In this document: positions 33,955-42,197 of the stretch, piece by piece
Numbering within the stretch: the first letter of the stretch is position 1
How the letters are laid out: each line of letters opens with the position of its first letter
Assembly (NCBI GenBank): GCA_003175985.1
Contig: PSRJ01000129.1
Coordinates: 1 to 64,000 of the forward strand
Length of the DNA stretch: 64,000 nucleotides
Reading direction: 5' to 3'
Origin: Terriglobia bacterium
GTDB taxonomy: Bacteria; Acidobacteriota; Terriglobia; Bryobacterales; Bryobacteraceae
Made by a program: the position numbers and the translations under genes
The notes under the pieces: model-generated
Databases searched by the model: none
What the model was told of the DNA's origin: nothing
Seen by the model: the letters and a program-made list of their open reading frames with translations, nothing else

Positions 33955-34071
33955 ACGACTCGCAGATCATTTTGGTTAGTAGAGTCAGATTCCCGCAGTC
34001 CCCTCCCCCGGATGTAGAATGAATGTGCTGCGCCATGCCGCCGAAGTGTGCGGCATAGGGAGGAATTGCGG

Positions 34072-35853
34072 TTGCAACGGACCAATACGGATGACCCGAA
34101 CTACTTCCACAAAGTTGTAGATTGCCAGTGGGCATGTCCGGCCCACACCAACGTTCCGGAATACATCCGGCTCATCGCGCAAGGCAAATATACCGAAGCC
34201 TACATGTTGAACCGGGAATCGAACGTGTTCCCGGCCATTCTGGGCCGCACGTGCGACCGCCCGTGCGAACCGGCGTGCCGCCGCGGGCGGGTTGACGGCA
34301 AACCCGTGGCTATCTGCCGGCTCAAGCGCGTCGCCGCCGATCATCGCGACGATATTACCGGATTCCTTCCCCGCATTCCAGAAAAGAAAAACGGAAAACG
34401 CATCGCGTGTATCGGCGCAGGTCCCGCCTCTCTCACAGTGGCGAACGACCTTCTGCCGCTGGGCTACGAAATCGTCATTTACGAGAAGTACGATAAGCCC
34501 GGCGGGCTGATGCGCACGAACATTCCGGCCTTCCGTCTGCCTGAACGCGTGCTTACCGAGGAGATCGATTACATCCTGAATATGGGAGTCGATATCCGTT
34601 ACAACTCGCCGGTCACCAGCATGCGGGCGCTGCTCAAGGAAGGATACGACGCGATCTTCGTGGGCAGCGGCGCGCCACGCGGTAAAGAACTGGAACTCCC
34701 CGGCCGGCACGACACCGATCGGATCTACATCGGGATCGACTGGCTGGAGTCGATCGCGTTCGGTCACGTGGATTCGATCGGCGAGAAAGTGCTCATTATC
34801 GGCGTAGGCAACACGGCGATGGACTGCTGCCGTTCGTCGCGGCGCCTGGGAGCGAGGGAGATCAAGGTGATGGCGCGCCGCCCGCGCGGATTCTTCAAGG
34901 CATCGCCCTGGGAACTGGACGACGCTGAGGAAGAGGGTGTCGGGATCCTGGTGAATCATGCTCCCAAGCGCTTTGTCGTGGAAGACGGCCAGCTCAAGGG
35001 CATGGAGTTCGAACGGCTCGAGTGGGACAAGGGCGCCAAGAACTCCCAGGTTATCGACACCGTGTTTCTGCCCGCTGACGATGTGATTCTGGCGATTGGG
35101 CAGGAAAACGCCTTTCCGTGGTTCGAGCGCGATTTAGGCGTGGAGTTCAACAAGTGGGAAGAACCGGTTGTAGATAAGGTCACGATGCAAGCCTCCCTTC
35201 CCAATGTGTTCTTCGGAGGCGATGCGGCGTTCGGGCCGAAGAACATCATCTGGGCGGTGGAGCACGGCCACCAGGCCGCCATCTCGATCCACAATTATTG
35301 CGAAGGAACTCCGACCTCGGAACGTCCCGCCCAGGGCATGAACCTGGTCAGCCAAAAGATGGGGCTGGGCCAGTGGAGTTATCACAACGATTACAACCCG
35401 GCTACGCGACAGAAGATGCAGCACGTGGATCTCGCGGTACGCTTCGAGCAGCTCAACATCGAGGTGGAGCTCGGCTTCAATCCGGCGCAGACGGCGCGTG
35501 AAGTGCAGCGCTGTCTCAACTGCGATATCCAAACCGTCTTTTACGCGGCGCGCTGTATCGAATGCGATGCCTGTATCGACGTCTGCCCGCTGCTGTGCCT
35601 CACGATCGCGCCGGACGCCGAGGAAGAAGAGATCCGGCAGCGCCTTTCGGCGCCCGCCAACAACCTGGACCAAGACGTTTTTGCTTCCACCCCACTTCCG
35701 CAGACCAAACGGCTCATGCTCAAGGACGAGGATCTCTGCGTGCACTGCGGTTTGTGCGCCGAGCGCTGCCCTACCGCGGCCTGGGACATGCAGAAGTTTG
35801 ACCTCGAAATTCCATATGCAGGAAGGCCAGTACTTGCCACAATCAATAGTTGA
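34072..35853 (+). CDS. GltD-like FAD/NAD(P) oxidoreductase with C-terminal 2x[4Fe-4S] ferredoxin domain
   Basis: Cys-rich N-terminus (CQWACPAHTNVPEYIRLI...CDRPCEPACRRG), GAGPASL FAD motif, GVGNTAMDCCR NAD(P) motif, ferredoxin motifs CIECDACIDVCP and CVHCGLCAERCP. TTG start at 34072 preceded by GGAGG; ORF track start 34048. Confidence 0.88.
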   Translation: MQRTNTDDPNYFHKVVDCQWACPAHTNVPEYIRLIAQGKYTEAYMLNRESNVFPAILGRTCDRPCEPACRRGRVDGKPVAICRLKRVAADHRDDITGFLPRIPEKKNGKRIACIGAGPASLTVANDLLPLGYEIVIYEKYDKPGGLMRTNIPAFRLPERVLTEEIDYILNMGVDIRYNSPVTSMRALLKEGYDAIFVGSGAPRGKELELPGRHDTDRIYIGIDWLESIAFGHVDSIGEKVLIIGVGNTAMDCCRSSRRLGAREIKVMARRPRGFFKASPWELDDAEEEGVGILVNHAPKRFVVEDGQLKGMEFERLEWDKGAKNSQVIDTVFLPADDVILAIGQENAFPWFERDLGVEFNKWEEPVVDKVTMQASLPNVFFGGDAAFGPKNIIWAVEHGHQAAISIHNYCEGTPTSERPAQGMNLVSQKMGLGQWSYHNDYNPATRQKMQHVDLAVRFEQLNIEVELGFNPAQTAREVQRCLNCDIQTVFYAARCIECDACIDVCPLLCLTIAPDAEEEEIRQRLSAPANNLDQDVFASTPLPQTKRLMLKDEDLCVHCGLCAERCPTAAWDMQKFDLEIPYAGRPVLATINS

Positions 35854-37690
35854 CCCCGACGTCACCTCACCCGAGCGGAAAGAGATCCGCATTAACGATT
35901 TCGCATTTAAGCTCGCCAACGTAAACGGCACCGGCTCGGCCAGCGCTAACGGTTTGCTGATGCAAGCCATCTTCCGGATGGGGATCCCGGTCTCGGGCAA
36001 AAATCTGTTCCCATCCAACATTCAAGGTCTGCCCACCTGGTATGAAATCCGCGTCAACAAGGCCGGCAACACGGCGCGCGCGCTGGATTACGACCTGGTG
36101 GTGGCGATGAACGGGCAGACTTACGAGCGCGACGTGCGCGAGGTGCGCGCAGGCGGCTACCTGCTCTACGATTCCACCTGGCCGCTGGACCCGCACCTGC
36201 GCCGCGAGGACATCGCCATTCTGGGCGTGCCGCTGGCGGCAATGTGCAATGAGAATTTCCGCGAGCCCCGCGAGCGCGTTCTCATGAAAAACATCGCCTA
36301 TGCCGGCGCGCTGGTTGCCATATTGCATATCGATATGGACGTGGTGGAAGAGCTGCTGGACGAGAAATTCGCCGGCAAGAAAGCCCTGCGCGAATCCAAT
36401 CGCAAGGCGCTGCGGCTGGGACTCGACTACGCCAAAGAATATTTCGCCCCGCTGCCGTTCCGCCTGGAAAAAATGGATGCGAACCGGGACAAGATCCTGA
36501 TCGACGGAAACACTGCCACGGCGCTGGGGTGCGTTTACGCCGGCGCAACCGTGGCCGCCTGGTATCCGATCACGCCCTCTACCTCGGTGATGGACGCGTT
36601 CAAGGAGTTTTGCGATAAGTACCGGCAGGATCCGGAGACAGGCAGAAACAACTGCATCATCCTGCAGGCCGAAGATGAGCTGGCGGCCATCGGCATGGTG
36701 ATCGGCGCTTCGTGGAACGGGGCGCGGGCGTTCACGTCCACGTCCGGCCCCGGCATCTCGCTGATGAACGAACTGCTGGGGCTGGCTTATTATGCGGAGA
36801 TCCCCGCGGTGATTATGGACATACAGCGCGTGGGACCTTCCACCGGAATGCCTACGCGCACCCAGCAGGGCGACCTGCTCGAATGCGCCTATGCCTCGCA
36901 CGGCGACACCAAGCACATCCTGCTGTTTCCGGCGAATCCGGCGGAATGCTTCGAGTTTGCGGTGAAGAGCTTCGATTTGGCGGAACGCTTTCAGACCCCG
37001 GTTTTCATGCTGTCGGACCTCGATATCGGGATGAACGACTGGGTTGTGCCGCGCTTGCGCTGGGATGACTCCTACCGTCCGGATCGCGGCCGCGTTGTGA
37101 GCGCCGAAGAGTTAGAGCAGATTTCGCAATTCCTGCGCTATAGCAATGAAGACGAGAACCACGTGGCGGCACGCACGCTCCCGGGAGTCGATTCGCGGGC
37201 GGCGTACTTCACCAGGGGGTCGGGCCACACCAAAACCGGCGCTTACACTGAAATTCCCGAGGAATACCAGGAAGTGGTGGACCGGCTGGCGCGCAAACAC
37301 AAAGCGGCCGCGAAGTTTGTTCCCGAGCCGCTGATCGTGAAGCGGCCGGGCGCGCAGATCGGCGTGGTGACGATTGGAGGCTGCGATCTGGCGGTGCGCG
37401 AAGCTCTGGATGGACTCGCGCGCATCGGTATTGAAGCCGATTTCCTGCGTGTGCGCGGGTTCCCGTTCGGAGAGAGTGTAGAGGCGTTCCTTCGCGATCA
37501 CGACGTCTGCTTCGTGGTGGAGCAGAACCGTGATGCGCAACTGAAAGTGCTGTTGACTAACGAAACGGGCGCAGTGAAAGAAAAGCTGCGGTCGGTGCTG
37601 GTCTACGGCGGTTTCCCGCTCAGCGCCAAGCACGTGATCGAAGGCATCGCCAGCCAGATGGGAGAGTGGAAAAATGCCGTCCATCAGTAA
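35816..37690 (+). CDS. 2-oxoacid:acceptor oxidoreductase subunit alpha (KorA-like)
   Basis: ERKEIRINDFAFKLANVNGTGSASANGLLMQAIFRMGIPVSGKNLFPSNIQGLPTWYEIRVNKAG...GCVYAGATVAAWYPITPSTSVMD...TSTSGPGISLMNELLGLAYYAEIPAVIMDIQRVGPSTGMPTRTQQ. Start trimmed. Confidence 0.93.
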   Translation: MQEGQYLPQSIVDPDVTSPERKEIRINDFAFKLANVNGTGSASANGLLMQAIFRMGIPVSGKNLFPSNIQGLPTWYEIRVNKAGNTARALDYDLVVAMNGQTYERDVREVRAGGYLLYDSTWPLDPHLRREDIAILGVPLAAMCNENFREPRERVLMKNIAYAGALVAILHIDMDVVEELLDEKFAGKKALRESNRKALRLGLDYAKEYFAPLPFRLEKMDANRDKILIDGNTATALGCVYAGATVAAWYPITPSTSVMDAFKEFCDKYRQDPETGRNNCIILQAEDELAAIGMVIGASWNGARAFTSTSGPGISLMNELLGLAYYAEIPAVIMDIQRVGPSTGMPTRTQQGDLLECAYASHGDTKHILLFPANPAECFEFAVKSFDLAERFQTPVFMLSDLDIGMNDWVVPRLRWDDSYRPDRGRVVSAEELEQISQFLRYSNEDENHVAARTLPGVDSRAAYFTRGSGHTKTGAYTEIPEEYQEVVDRLARKHKAAAKFVPEPLIVKRPGAQIGVVTIGGCDLAVREALDGLARIGIEADFLRVRGFPFGESVEAFLRDHDVCFVVEQNRDAQLKVLLTNETGAVKEKLRSVLVYGGFPLSAKHVIEGIASQMGEWKNAVHQ

Positions 37691-38729
37691 GCCGACAGTC
37701 ATCCATCCCAGCCTGCGGCGGAACGAGTTGGGGCTCACGGTTCGCGACTACGAGGGGTCGATGTCCACGCTGTGCGCGGGCTGCGGGCATGATTCGATTA
37801 CCGCCGCGCTGGTGCGCGCCATCTGGGAATCGGCTCTGCCGCCGCACATGATCGCCAAAGTCAGTGGCATCGGCTGCTCGTCGAAGACGCCGGCTTATTT
37901 CGTCAGCGGCGCGCATGGCTTTAACGCCGCGCACGGCCGCATGCCTCCGATCGCCACTGGTGCGAATGCGGCCAACCGCGAGCTGACGTATATCGGCATT
38001 TCGGGCGACGGCGACTCGCTCTCCATTGGCCTCGGCCACCTCTGCCATGCCATTCGCCGCAACCTCAAGATGGTTTACGTCATCGAGAACAATGGTGTGT
38101 ATGGTCTGACGAAAGGACAATTCTCCGCCTCGGCCGACGTGGGCTCAAAGAGCAAACGGAAGGAGCCTAACCGGATGGCGCCCATCGATCCGGTAGCCCT
38201 GGGGTTGAGCCTGGGAGCGACCTTTATCGCGCGCAGCTTCTCGGGCGATAAAGAGCAGCTTGTGCCCATTCTGAAGGCCGCCATGACACACCGCGGCTTT
38301 GCCCTGGTGGACGTGCTTTCGCCCTGCGTCACCTTCAACGATCATGAAGGCTCGACGAAAAGCTACATGCATGTGCGGAACCAGGCGCGTGCGGCTACGG
38401 AGACGGATTTCATTCCGGAGGCCTCCGAGATTCTGGCGACCATCGGGCAGAATGGCGCGGTCAACGTAACCATGCACGATGGCAGCATGGTGTCGTTCAA
38501 AGGCGTGCCACCGGACTACGATCCGACGGATCGCGAAAAAGTGTTCAGCTTCCTGCAGGAGCGGCAGAGCAAAGGCGAAATCGTGACCGGCATCCTGTAT
38601 ATCGACGAGACCGTGCCCGATCTGCACGAACTGAGCGGCACGCCCAATTTCGCACTCACGAAGCTTCCCTACGAAAAACTCTGCCCGGGGGCAGCGGCGC
38701 TGGAAGAGTTGCAAGAGGAGTACCGGTGA
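37674..38729 (+). CDS. 2-oxoacid:ferredoxin oxidoreductase subunit beta (KorB-like)
   Basis: MSTLCAGCGHDSITAALVRAIWE...KVSGIGCSSKTPAYF...HGRMPPIATGANAANRELTYIGISGDGDSLSIGLGHLCHAIRRNLKMVYVIENNGVYGLTKGQFSAS, TPP-binding beta subunit. Confidence 0.95.
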   Translation: MPSISKPTVIHPSLRRNELGLTVRDYEGSMSTLCAGCGHDSITAALVRAIWESALPPHMIAKVSGIGCSSKTPAYFVSGAHGFNAAHGRMPPIATGANAANRELTYIGISGDGDSLSIGLGHLCHAIRRNLKMVYVIENNGVYGLTKGQFSASADVGSKSKRKEPNRMAPIDPVALGLSLGATFIARSFSGDKEQLVPILKAAMTHRGFALVDVLSPCVTFNDHEGSTKSYMHVRNQARAATETDFIPEASEILATIGQNGAVNVTMHDGSMVSFKGVPPDYDPTDREKVFSFLQERQSKGEIVTGILYIDETVPDLHELSGTPNFALTKLPYEKLCPGAAALEELQEEYR

Positions 38730-38854: not shown

Positions 38855-38898
38855 AGCGATCATACAAGAGCGAACTGCTCTTCGGTGGGTTCCGCTCA
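38855..38898 (-). promoter_or_regulatory. Putative bacterial SECIS element
   Basis: RNA: UGA-GCGGAACCCACCG-AAGAGC-AGUUC-GCUCUU-GUAUGAU-CGCUC. 6-bp perfect upper stem, 5-nt loop with G at position 2, 19 nt from UGA to loop; GAGCG/CGCUC can form a lower stem. Confidence 0.8.
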
Positions 38899-40221
38899 AC
38901 AGTACCAGGGCTCAGTCAGATAAGGAATAGTGGCACGGGACGGGCGCGGATCGCCCTCCGGGAACGGGCCGGCTTCAGCAAGCTGCAAGATCAGGCGGAA
39001 CAGTTCCTGGCGGGTGCGGCGGCCCTCCTCGCGCTTGAGCAATTCCTGAATCGAGGCGTGCAGAATGTCGAGGCCGCTCTCGCGGCTACGCCAGGGATAA
39101 CACAGCGCATGCGCATCAAACGGTTCCACGAGGGCGCGGATCTCGGGCTGTTCCAACAGTAAAGAGCCTTCGGGAATCAACAGACGGATCGCGAGTTGGA
39201 TGGGCGCCACCTGATCCGCGAGGTCAAGTTCCACGAGATCTCGCAGAAAGCGTTGGTACGATTCGCGCGTGGTCCATGGTGTGAATGGTATGAACGTAGG
39301 CGCCAGGGGCAGGCCGGCCGCGCGGCTGAGCGACAACGCCTCGAGAAAATCGGCGCGCGTGTGGCCTTTGGAGAGCTTCTCGAGCACAGCGTCGTCCAAA
39401 GACTCTACCGCACTGGTCACAAACAGGCAGCCCGTCGCCTTGAGCGCGGGGAGCAATTCGCGGTGCTTGAGCATGTGCTCGATCTTGATCGTCACATCGT
39501 AGGTGAGCGTGGGCCATTCGCAGTGCAAGCTCTCGATGACCTTCAGAGCGTGCCCCGGGCCATTGAAGAAATCGGGGTCTCCGAAGGTGACGTGCTGCGC
39601 GCCCAAGGCGATCTGGCGGCGTATGTCTTCGAGAACGATTTCCCGCTGCACGATGCGGAACGAACCGCGATAGACCGGAACGACGGGGCAATGGCGGCAC
39701 CAATGCTTGCAGCCGCGGCTTGCCTCTGTGTATCCGACACGTTTGGTATCGCCGTTCACTACCAGTTGGGCATAGCTGGCAAGCGGCGGCAGTCCGGTGC
39801 GGTCGGGCACGCGGAACTGCTGCCGCCCGAGAGAGATCAGCGGCTGGGGCGCGGCCTCGCGCACCAGATCGGCAAGGGGTTTCTCAAACTCACCGCCGAT
39901 CACGGCGTTCACGCCGGCGCGGCACAACAGGTCTTGATTCAGCGGAGCATAGAGGCCGTATGCGCAGAGATACGCGGAGGGGTTGATCGACCGCACACGT
40001 TCCACCACACGCAGGATCAGGCGAGTGGCCGTATGCATCGGCAGAAAAAAGCCGATGAACTCCGCCTCGCTCGCAGCCTTCACCGGAAGGGGGCCTCGCG
40101 AAAGATCGGCTAGCACGACATCGTGGCCATCCTCTTTCAACCAGGCGGCCGGAGAAGCTAATCCAAAAGGCTGGCGTCCCAGTTCATAGGTGGAAATCAG
40201 GAGGACCCGCACTGATCCCAT
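38860..40221 (-). CDS. B12-binding-domain radical SAM selenoprotein, CUAEP-tail type (TGA at 38896-38898 read as Sec)
   Basis: N-terminal Rossmann-like B12-binding segment; radical SAM Cys motif CKHWCRHC. After ...PYLTEPWYC the in-frame TGA is followed by GCG GAA CCC ACC GAA GAG CAG TTC GCT CTT GTA TGA = U-AEPTEEQFALV*, giving the CUAEP tail. ORF track stops at 38896. Confidence 0.9.
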
Positions 40222-40267
40222 TATGACGGGTTTGCTACACTGGTCTCGAACCCCACAATCTCCCCCA

Positions 40268-41197
40268 ATGCCAGCCGTAGCCAGTATCGCCGAAGAGATT
40301 CTCGATTTAAAGCAGGTGCGGAAAGCCATTATTCTCGCCCATCATTACCAGGAGCCGGAGATCCAGGAATTGGCGGACGTGGTGGGCGACAGCCTCGAGT
40401 TGGCCGGCAAAGCGCGCGAGGTAGACGGGAAGGTGATCGCATTTTGCGGCGTCTGGTTTATGGCGGAGACTGCCAAGGTTTTGAACCCGAGCCGCGTAGT
40501 GGTGGCGCCGGATCGGGAGGCCAGTTGCAGTCTGGTGGAAAGCTGTCCTGTGGAGCCGATTCGCGCGTTCCGGCGGCAGAATCCGGATCACGTGATCGTG
40601 AGTTACATTAACACCTCAATCGAGGTGAAGGCCGAGAGCGACATCCTATGCACGTCGCGGAATGCCGTGAATATAGTCAACTCAATACCGCCCGAAAAAC
40701 CGGTCCTGTTCCTTCCGGACCGGAACCTTGGGAATTACGTGCAGCGGCAGACCGGCCGGCAAAACATGCAGATCTGGCAGGGCACGTGTATGGTGCACGC
40801 TACCTTTCCGGCGCGGCGGGTGATCGAGGCCAAACTGGAGCATCCGGAAGCAATGGTAGTGGCCCACCCGGAGTGCCCGGAAACCGTTTTGGCTCTGGCC
40901 GATTTCGTGGGTTCCACTTCCGCCATCATCGAATGGTGCGCGGATAGTCCGGCATCGGAATTCATCGTGATGACGGAGAGCGGCGTCAATTACTCGCTGA
41001 AGCGAGTGGCGCCTTACAAACAGTTTTATTACGTGGCCAACGAGAACTGCAATTGCAGCGAGTGCCCGTACATGAAACTGAATACCCTGGAGAAGCTGCG
41101 TGAATCTCTGCTCACGCTCGAGCCGCGGGTAGAGGTAGCGCCCGAAATCGCCCGGCGCGCGCTGATTCCGCTGGAGCGTATGCTCGCGGTGAGATAA
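40268..41197 (+). CDS. nadA: Quinolinate synthase NadA
   Basis: KAIILAHHYQEPEIQELADVVGDSLELAGKA...FCGVWFMAETAKVLNP...PDRNLGNYVQRQTG...CNCSECPYMKLNTLEKL. Start trimmed to ATG at 40268. Confidence 0.96.
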   Translation: MPAVASIAEEILDLKQVRKAIILAHHYQEPEIQELADVVGDSLELAGKAREVDGKVIAFCGVWFMAETAKVLNPSRVVVAPDREASCSLVESCPVEPIRAFRRQNPDHVIVSYINTSIEVKAESDILCTSRNAVNIVNSIPPEKPVLFLPDRNLGNYVQRQTGRQNMQIWQGTCMVHATFPARRVIEAKLEHPEAMVVAHPECPETVLALADFVGSTSAIIEWCADSPASEFIVMTESGVNYSLKRVAPYKQFYYVANENCNCSECPYMKLNTLEKLRESLLTLEPRVEVAPEIARRALIPLERMLAVR

Positions 41198-41198
41198 G

Positions 41199-42197
41199 AT
41201 GGCTGCCCTCCCATTGACCGATTCCTTTGGCCGCGTGCACGATAACCTCAGGGTCAGTGTCACCGACCGTTGTAATATCCGGTGCTTCTATTGCATGCCC
41301 GAAACGGATGTGCATTTCGTGGAGCGCCGCGAGATTCTGGATTTCGAAGAGATCGAACGCTTCGTCCGGATCGCCGTGGGGCTGGGCATTCGCAAGTTGC
41401 GGGTTACGGGCGGCGAACCGCTGGTGCGGCGCGATCTGCCAACACTGATTCAGCGGTTGTGCGCGATTCCCGGCATTCAGGATCTGGCGCTTACAACCAA
41501 TGGTGTGCTGCTGCCCAAGCTGGCGGAGCCACTCTATCGGGCGGGCTTGCGGCGCATCAACGTCCATCTGGACACCCTGGACCGGCAGCGGTTTTTGCAG
41601 ATCACGCGGCGGGACGAGATCGACAAGGTGCTGGAGGGTTTGGCGCTCTGCAGGCAACTCGGCTACTCCAAGATCAAGATCAATGCGGTGGCCGTAAAGA
41701 ATCTGGTGGAGCCGGACATCGTTCCTTTGGCGCGTTTCGCGCGCGAAAACGGCTTCGAGGTGCGGTACATCGAGTTCATGCCGCTGGACGCGCAGAGCCT
41801 GTGGGACCGTAGCAAGGTGCTGCTGGCGGACGACATTGTGGCAATGCTCAGCCGCGAGATCTCGCCCTTGGTCCCGGTGCCGGATCCCGACCCGCGCGCC
41901 CCTGCTTCTGAATATCAGTTTGCCGACGGCGTGGGACGGATCGGACTTATCGCTTCCGTCAGCCGTCCCTTCTGCCTCAACTGCAACCGGCTGCGTCTGA
42001 CTGCCGACGGCCACCTTCGCTATTGCCTGTTTGCGATCGAAGAAGACAATGTGAAAACATTGCTGCGCTCAGGCGCCCCGGACGATGAGATTGCCGCATT
42101 GATTCGCCGCAATGTGGCCGGCAAGTGGATCGGCCACGAGATCAATTCGACACGGTTTGTGGCGCCGCCGCGGCCAATGTATTCGATCGGCGGCTGA
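41199..42197 (+). CDS. moaA: GTP 3',8-cyclase MoaA
   Basis: DSFGRVHDNLRVSVTDRCNIRCFYCMPE radical SAM motif; LRVTGGEPLVRRDL; C-terminal CLNCNRLRLTADGHLRYCLF Fe-S motif. Confidence 0.97.
   Translation: MAALPLTDSFGRVHDNLRVSVTDRCNIRCFYCMPETDVHFVERREILDFEEIERFVRIAVGLGIRKLRVTGGEPLVRRDLPTLIQRLCAIPGIQDLALTTNGVLLPKLAEPLYRAGLRRINVHLDTLDRQRFLQITRRDEIDKVLEGLALCRQLGYSKIKINAVAVKNLVEPDIVPLARFARENGFEVRYIEFMPLDAQSLWDRSKVLLADDIVAMLSREISPLVPVPDPDPRAPASEYQFADGVGRIGLIASVSRPFCLNCNRLRLTADGHLRYCLFAIEEDNVKTLLRSGAPDDEIAALIRRNVAGKWIGHEINSTRFVAPPRPMYSIGG

Follow-up and report, generated by a model that had tools for sequence, protein, structure and literature searches.

Does a UGA codon close to the 3′-end of a radical SAM gene terminate translation or specify selenocysteine (Sec), and what might the resulting enzyme do? 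The question arises on the minus strand of the window (the whole stretch of DNA analysed, 64,000 nucleotides), where table-11 ORF calling stops a radical SAM ORF at WYC, and where the original prediction placed a hidden selenoprotein.

An in-frame UGA in a radical SAM gene

The gene spans positions 38860–40221 of the minus strand, stop codon included; the predicted span, 38855–40221, contains it, and differs only in that 38855 lies 5 nt past the stop, a trivial discrepancy. As had been proposed, the ORF ending in EPWYC-UGA (UGA at 38896–38898) reads on in the same frame through GCG GAA CCC ACC GAA GAG CAG TTC GCT CTT GTA (AEPTEEQFALV) to the true stop codon, a TGA at 38860–38862. Decoding the UGA as Sec gives a protein of 453 residues in which Sec is number 442 (Cys441-Sec442-Ala-Glu-Pro), and which is indeed 12 residues longer than the automated call (11 residues plus Sec). 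The frame has an ATG at 40221, but its relatives begin at the equivalent of the GTG at 40212, which the alignment makes the likelier start. The C-UGA-A-E-P continuation had been held to be very improbable by chance; a degenerate DNA pattern for it was found once on the two strands of the window, at the radical SAM gene.

Family membership, proposed on the basis of the tail, was borne out by a match to the NCBIfam model NF040546 (CUAEP/CCAEP-tail radical SAM (seleno)protein, or rSAM_CUAEP) of 608.7 bits, the cut-off being 500. The Pfam domain Radical_SAM (PF04055) occupies residues 168–327, and the cluster motif CxxxCxxC (C171, C175 and C178; 39688–39711, minus strand) is invariant in an alignment of 26 members. 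Residues 11–119 showed a weak match to the B12-binding domain PF02310 (27.5 bits, below the cut-off of 32.1), which leaves the protein outside the B12-dependent radical SAM methylases as judged by that domain.

The codon at the tail position among relatives

The C-terminus was compared across a sample of 200 genomes of the window's order, 89 of which contain a member of NF040546 scoring above the cut-off; the named relatives are acidobacteria of the Bryobacterales/Solibacteraceae type. Among 94 tails, the codon in question is TGA in 78 and a Cys codon (TGC or TGT) in 16, and it is followed by AEP in nearly all cases (one tail has TEP instead). The motif EPW-x-C-[UC]-AEP is nearly invariant across the tails, and C-[U/C]-A-E-P is invariant in the 26 aligned members. 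Rather than ending at WYC with no AEP codons downstream, close homologues thus keep AEP in frame after the UGA. In 16 relatives UGA gives way to Cys, never to Trp, which points to Sec. When the Sec/Cys label was placed on a tree of 85 sequences, 11 changes were needed, and well-supported branches force 10 of these.

A covarying hairpin follows the UGA

The hairpin that had been described as a candidate SECIS element was found at 38866–38882 (minus strand) with the features claimed for it: a 6-bp core stem (AAGAGC/GCUCUU) and a loop, AGUUC, that begins 19 nt past the UGA and has G at its second position. Of the 1624 TGA triplets of the window, five have a 6-bp stem and a 5-nt loop at exactly this spacing, two of these five with G at loop position 2. 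In the 78 UGA sequences, 94% of the cells in columns 17–22/28–33 after the UGA are paired and 21 cells are doubly changed; none of 500 shuffled controls matched either the pairing of the hairpin or its double-change count, and every slid register gave lower values. All six pairs are intact in 66 of the 78 UGA forms versus none of the 16 Cys forms, and G occupies loop position 2 in 78 of 78 UGA forms. The hairpin is conserved and covarying in UGA forms, and degraded in Cys forms. Within the genus of the window's genome, G048 has the Cys form and a partly decayed hairpin, yet retains SelA, SelB and tRNA-Sec.

The outer GAGCG/CGCUC helix, suggested as an extension of this structure, does form in the window but is not conserved: its six pairs are kept, in the same register, in one of the 78 UGA sequences, presumably that of the window itself. 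RNAalifold returned no structure for the 36-nt tail alignment, although the hairpin passes the pair count, and an Rfam search over the window gave no match. In G106, G058, G095, G099 and G098 (loci L199, L201, L200, L181 and L187) the helix is shifted by one base and closed by a 4-nt loop (GACGGCC-AGUU-GGCCGUC or a near variant).

By analogy with the known mechanism of E. coli, SelB would bind the hairpin just past the UGA and bring Sec-tRNA-Sec, and the product would end in EPWYC-U-AEPTEEQFALV rather than in EPWYC. A competing view takes the UGA as an ordinary stop, with the protein ending at WYC and AEPTEEQFALV left untranslated. The table-11 call ends there, and SelA is absent from the assembly (see below), but 78 sequences hold the frame past the UGA, the 16 with Cys read on through AEP, the hairpin covaries in the UGA forms only, and the genome encodes SelB, SelD and tRNA-Sec. 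An ordinary stop is therefore very improbable.

The selenocysteine machinery of the window's genome

The original prediction supposed that the organism has a functional Sec-decoding system, to be sought in its genome as selA, selB, selD and selC. In the assembly of the window's genome (G000; 7.4 Mb in 405 contigs, 92% complete), SelB was found at full length on contig C291 (366.6 bits; cut-off 242.25) and SelD on contig C151 (363.5 bits). A complete tRNA-Sec gene (selC) with a UCA anticodon was obtained by joining the end of contig C174 (L132) to the start of C185 (L133) through an exact 51-bp overlap; the split was found by comparing the contig that bears selC in G048 with the window's genome. 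Since the contig break cuts the gene, genome-wide tRNA searches miss it. SelD (L009; C151:35826–36749, minus strand) is itself a selenoprotein, with an in-frame UGA at AGUASKL.

SelA was the component of this system that was not found: neither its profile nor the DNA of the selA region from the same genus gave a match in this assembly. One might read this as a recent loss of Sec decoding, with the UGA form a decaying gene, given that 7.4 Mb hold no SelA match of any kind and no selA counterpart to the same-genus region. However, the assembly is incomplete and fragmented, and tRNA-Sec itself is broken by a contig end, while SelB is full length, SelD has a UGA of its own and the hairpin is intact. 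Two members of the same genus (G048 and G168) do have SelA, and across the order it exceeds the cut-off in 164 of 200 genomes, so its absence here is most simply explained by an assembly gap. Genomes that truly lack the trait look different, having also lost SelB and tRNA-Sec and switched to Cys: G028, G046, G073, G100 and G170, all of one genus, have no SelA, no SelB above the cut-off and no match to a UCA tRNA-Sec, and all carry the Cys form. Seven UGA-form genomes have no good SelA match, and each keeps SelB above the cut-off or a UCA tRNA-Sec, as is expected of assembly gaps. Overall, SelA accompanies 70 of 77 UGA forms versus 9 of the 15 with Cys (Fisher P = 0.006, with no correction for kinship). 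Recent loss thus appears very unlikely, with a small residual chance.

The Rfam tRNA-Sec model also produced a match above its cut-off (58.5 bits) at L001:1502–1587 (C268:7828–7913), which was rejected as tRNA-Sec, its anticodon being UAU. This 86-nt class-II RNA is allo-tRNA-like: its 8/4 acceptor/T shape and its anticodon match those of the described allo-tRNA-UAU (PMC7609411). Ordinary tRNA-Ser genes reach 45–50 bits with the same model, so a match to it is not in itself proof of selC, and a UAU allo-tRNA-like RNA that passes the threshold is a false-positive trap for selC calls. The presence of a non-standard class-II tRNA that beats tRNA-Ser in this search might suggest that some route other than tRNA-Sec decodes the UGA, for instance a code change to Trp or this unusual tRNA. 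An RNA with a UAU anticodon and the allo-tRNA-UAU shape does not, however, pair with UGA; moreover, the radical SAM gene itself terminates at a UGA (38860), and the replacement seen in the 16 relatives is Cys rather than Trp. Such a reading is barely credible. The observation of a UGA-extended radical SAM tail is confirmed, its interpretation as a selenoprotein is supported, and the gene very probably encodes, on the strength of these comparisons, a Sec-decoded radical SAM enzyme belonging to the CUAEP/CCAEP family.

Genomic neighbourhood

The divergent neighbour of the gene is nadA, for quinolinate synthase (40265–41197, plus strand; NF006878, 409.6 bits), followed by moaA, for GTP 3′,8-cyclase (41199–42197, plus strand; TIGR02666, 365.9 bits). 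With the window included, nadA adjoins the radical SAM gene in 8 of 21 loci, mostly in close relatives, and moaA is present in 7 of 21, and both were rejected as functional partners, adjacency being confined to a minority of loci. On the other side, at 34048–38729, plus-strand genes convergent with the selenoprotein gene encode the alpha/gamma and beta subunits of a 2-oxoacid:ferredoxin oxidoreductase, along with a GltD-like NAD(P)/Fe-S protein; the beta subunit gene (37674–38729) is the immediate neighbour, its product scoring 222.4 bits with PorB_KorB (TIGR02177), under the cut-off of 261.9. Nothing recognisable as an ars gene adjoins the radical SAM gene.

An ATP-grasp ligase gene accompanies the radical SAM gene

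A gene encoding an ATP-grasp protein (domains ATP-grasp_4, ATPgrasp_N and LAL_C2; for example L119:9894–11120 and its orthologues) was found in 93 of the 94 genomes that carry the radical SAM gene versus 2 of the 106 without it (Fisher P = 7 × 10–54, uncorrected for kinship), and genera that mix positive and negative species include g2, g9, g10, g14 and g17. The co-occurrence of the two genes is near-perfect. When up to 20 kb of context was inspected in 20 relatives, the ligase gene lay downstream on the same strand in nine, in some directly after the stop codon, and it also adjoins the radical SAM gene in Methylomirabilota, Gemmatimonadota and Latescibacterota. In the window's genome only a fragment of it is seen, where contig C30 ends (C30:23840–24334). 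The open-access literature searched made no mention of CUAEP, of RCCLKC or of an ATP-grasp partner of the CUAEP family, and within that literature the pairing is apparently undescribed so far.

By eye, a gene for a YggX-like (Fe-trafficking) protein was recognised as a neighbour of the ATP-grasp gene in the majority of the loci inspected, whichever the setting (for example L104:6929–7408 and L230:8138–8470); it is convergent with the ligase gene and may reflect mere synteny.

A possible two-step pathway

The AlphaFold2 model of the selenoprotein has a pLDDT of 88, with low confidence in the tail. The Cys-Sec tail, which comes after a poorly defined stretch in this model, could be mobile. The enzyme probably works with the ATP-grasp ligase, encoded elsewhere in the genome, in a two-step pathway. 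In the first step, the [4Fe-4S] cluster would cleave SAM, and the substrate would, by analogy with ArsL, be held or reduced by the Cys-Sec pair of the flexible C-terminus; in the second, the L-amino-acid-ligase-like ATP-grasp protein would join the amino acid so formed to a second amino acid or to a carboxylate. ArsL, of arsinothricin biosynthesis, has been reported to transfer a 3-amino-3-carboxypropyl group from SAM to As(III), yielding an amino acid (PMC8552651); an amino-acid ligase acting after a relative of ArsL would be a sensible arrangement. Worded this specifically, the chemistry and the substrate of the first step, together with the second step, are put forward tentatively, with the balance tipping somewhat against them. 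We give an even chance to the broader proposal of an obligate two-gene pathway, spread over many acidobacteria and several other phyla, in which the LAL-type ATP-grasp ligase and the CUAEP selenoenzyme, whose Cys-Sec tail would act on the substrate, together make a ligated non-standard amino acid (possibly metalloid- or selenium-bearing).

These results correct a gene truncated by table-11 ORF calling, and point to selenium use in an uncultured soil acidobacterial lineage. The tRNA-Sec gene split over two contigs illustrates how an assembly can hide Sec machinery. The near-perfect ligase-type partner is a first concrete handle on the product of the CUAEP family. Pairs of UGA and Cys forms within one genus amount to a natural experiment, which bears both on the contribution of Sec and on the decay of SECIS hairpins.

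Comparison with known systems

The next-best NCBIfam family is ArsL (NF040542), which shares one CxxxCxxC cluster with the window's protein. The match, over residues 6–392, reaches 259.8 bits against a cut-off of 450, and the aligned part ends before the tail; for these reasons, and because no ars genes were recognised nearby, arsenic as the substrate would be a guess. The best fold match was AprD4, a radical SAM 1,2-diol dehydratase (PDB 6fd2; TM 0.71, E = 8.9 × 10–20), also the best sequence match in the PDB; it is, however, only 18% identical to the selenoprotein, which scores 30.3 bits with NF033070 against a cut-off of 500. The partner protein has ATP-grasp_4, ATPgrasp_N and LAL_C2 in common with L-amino-acid ligases that contain LAL_C2, such as BacD and DdaF, but falls far below the cut-offs of both (38.8 versus 850 for BacD and 30.1 versus 840 for DdaF).

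The closest likeness is with rSAM_CUAEP (NF040546) itself: the window's gene shares with it a full-length match above the curated cut-off, the Cys-Sec-Ala-Glu-Pro tail and the use of UGA for Sec, with no structural difference. The CUAEP family and its Sec tail were already known, and the window's gene is a further member; since the name of the NCBI model already contains the CUAEP tail, the Sec tail was not first discovered here. The description of the model gives neither a function nor a partner gene, and to it the present analysis adds the ATP-grasp partner and the covariation of the SECIS hairpin.
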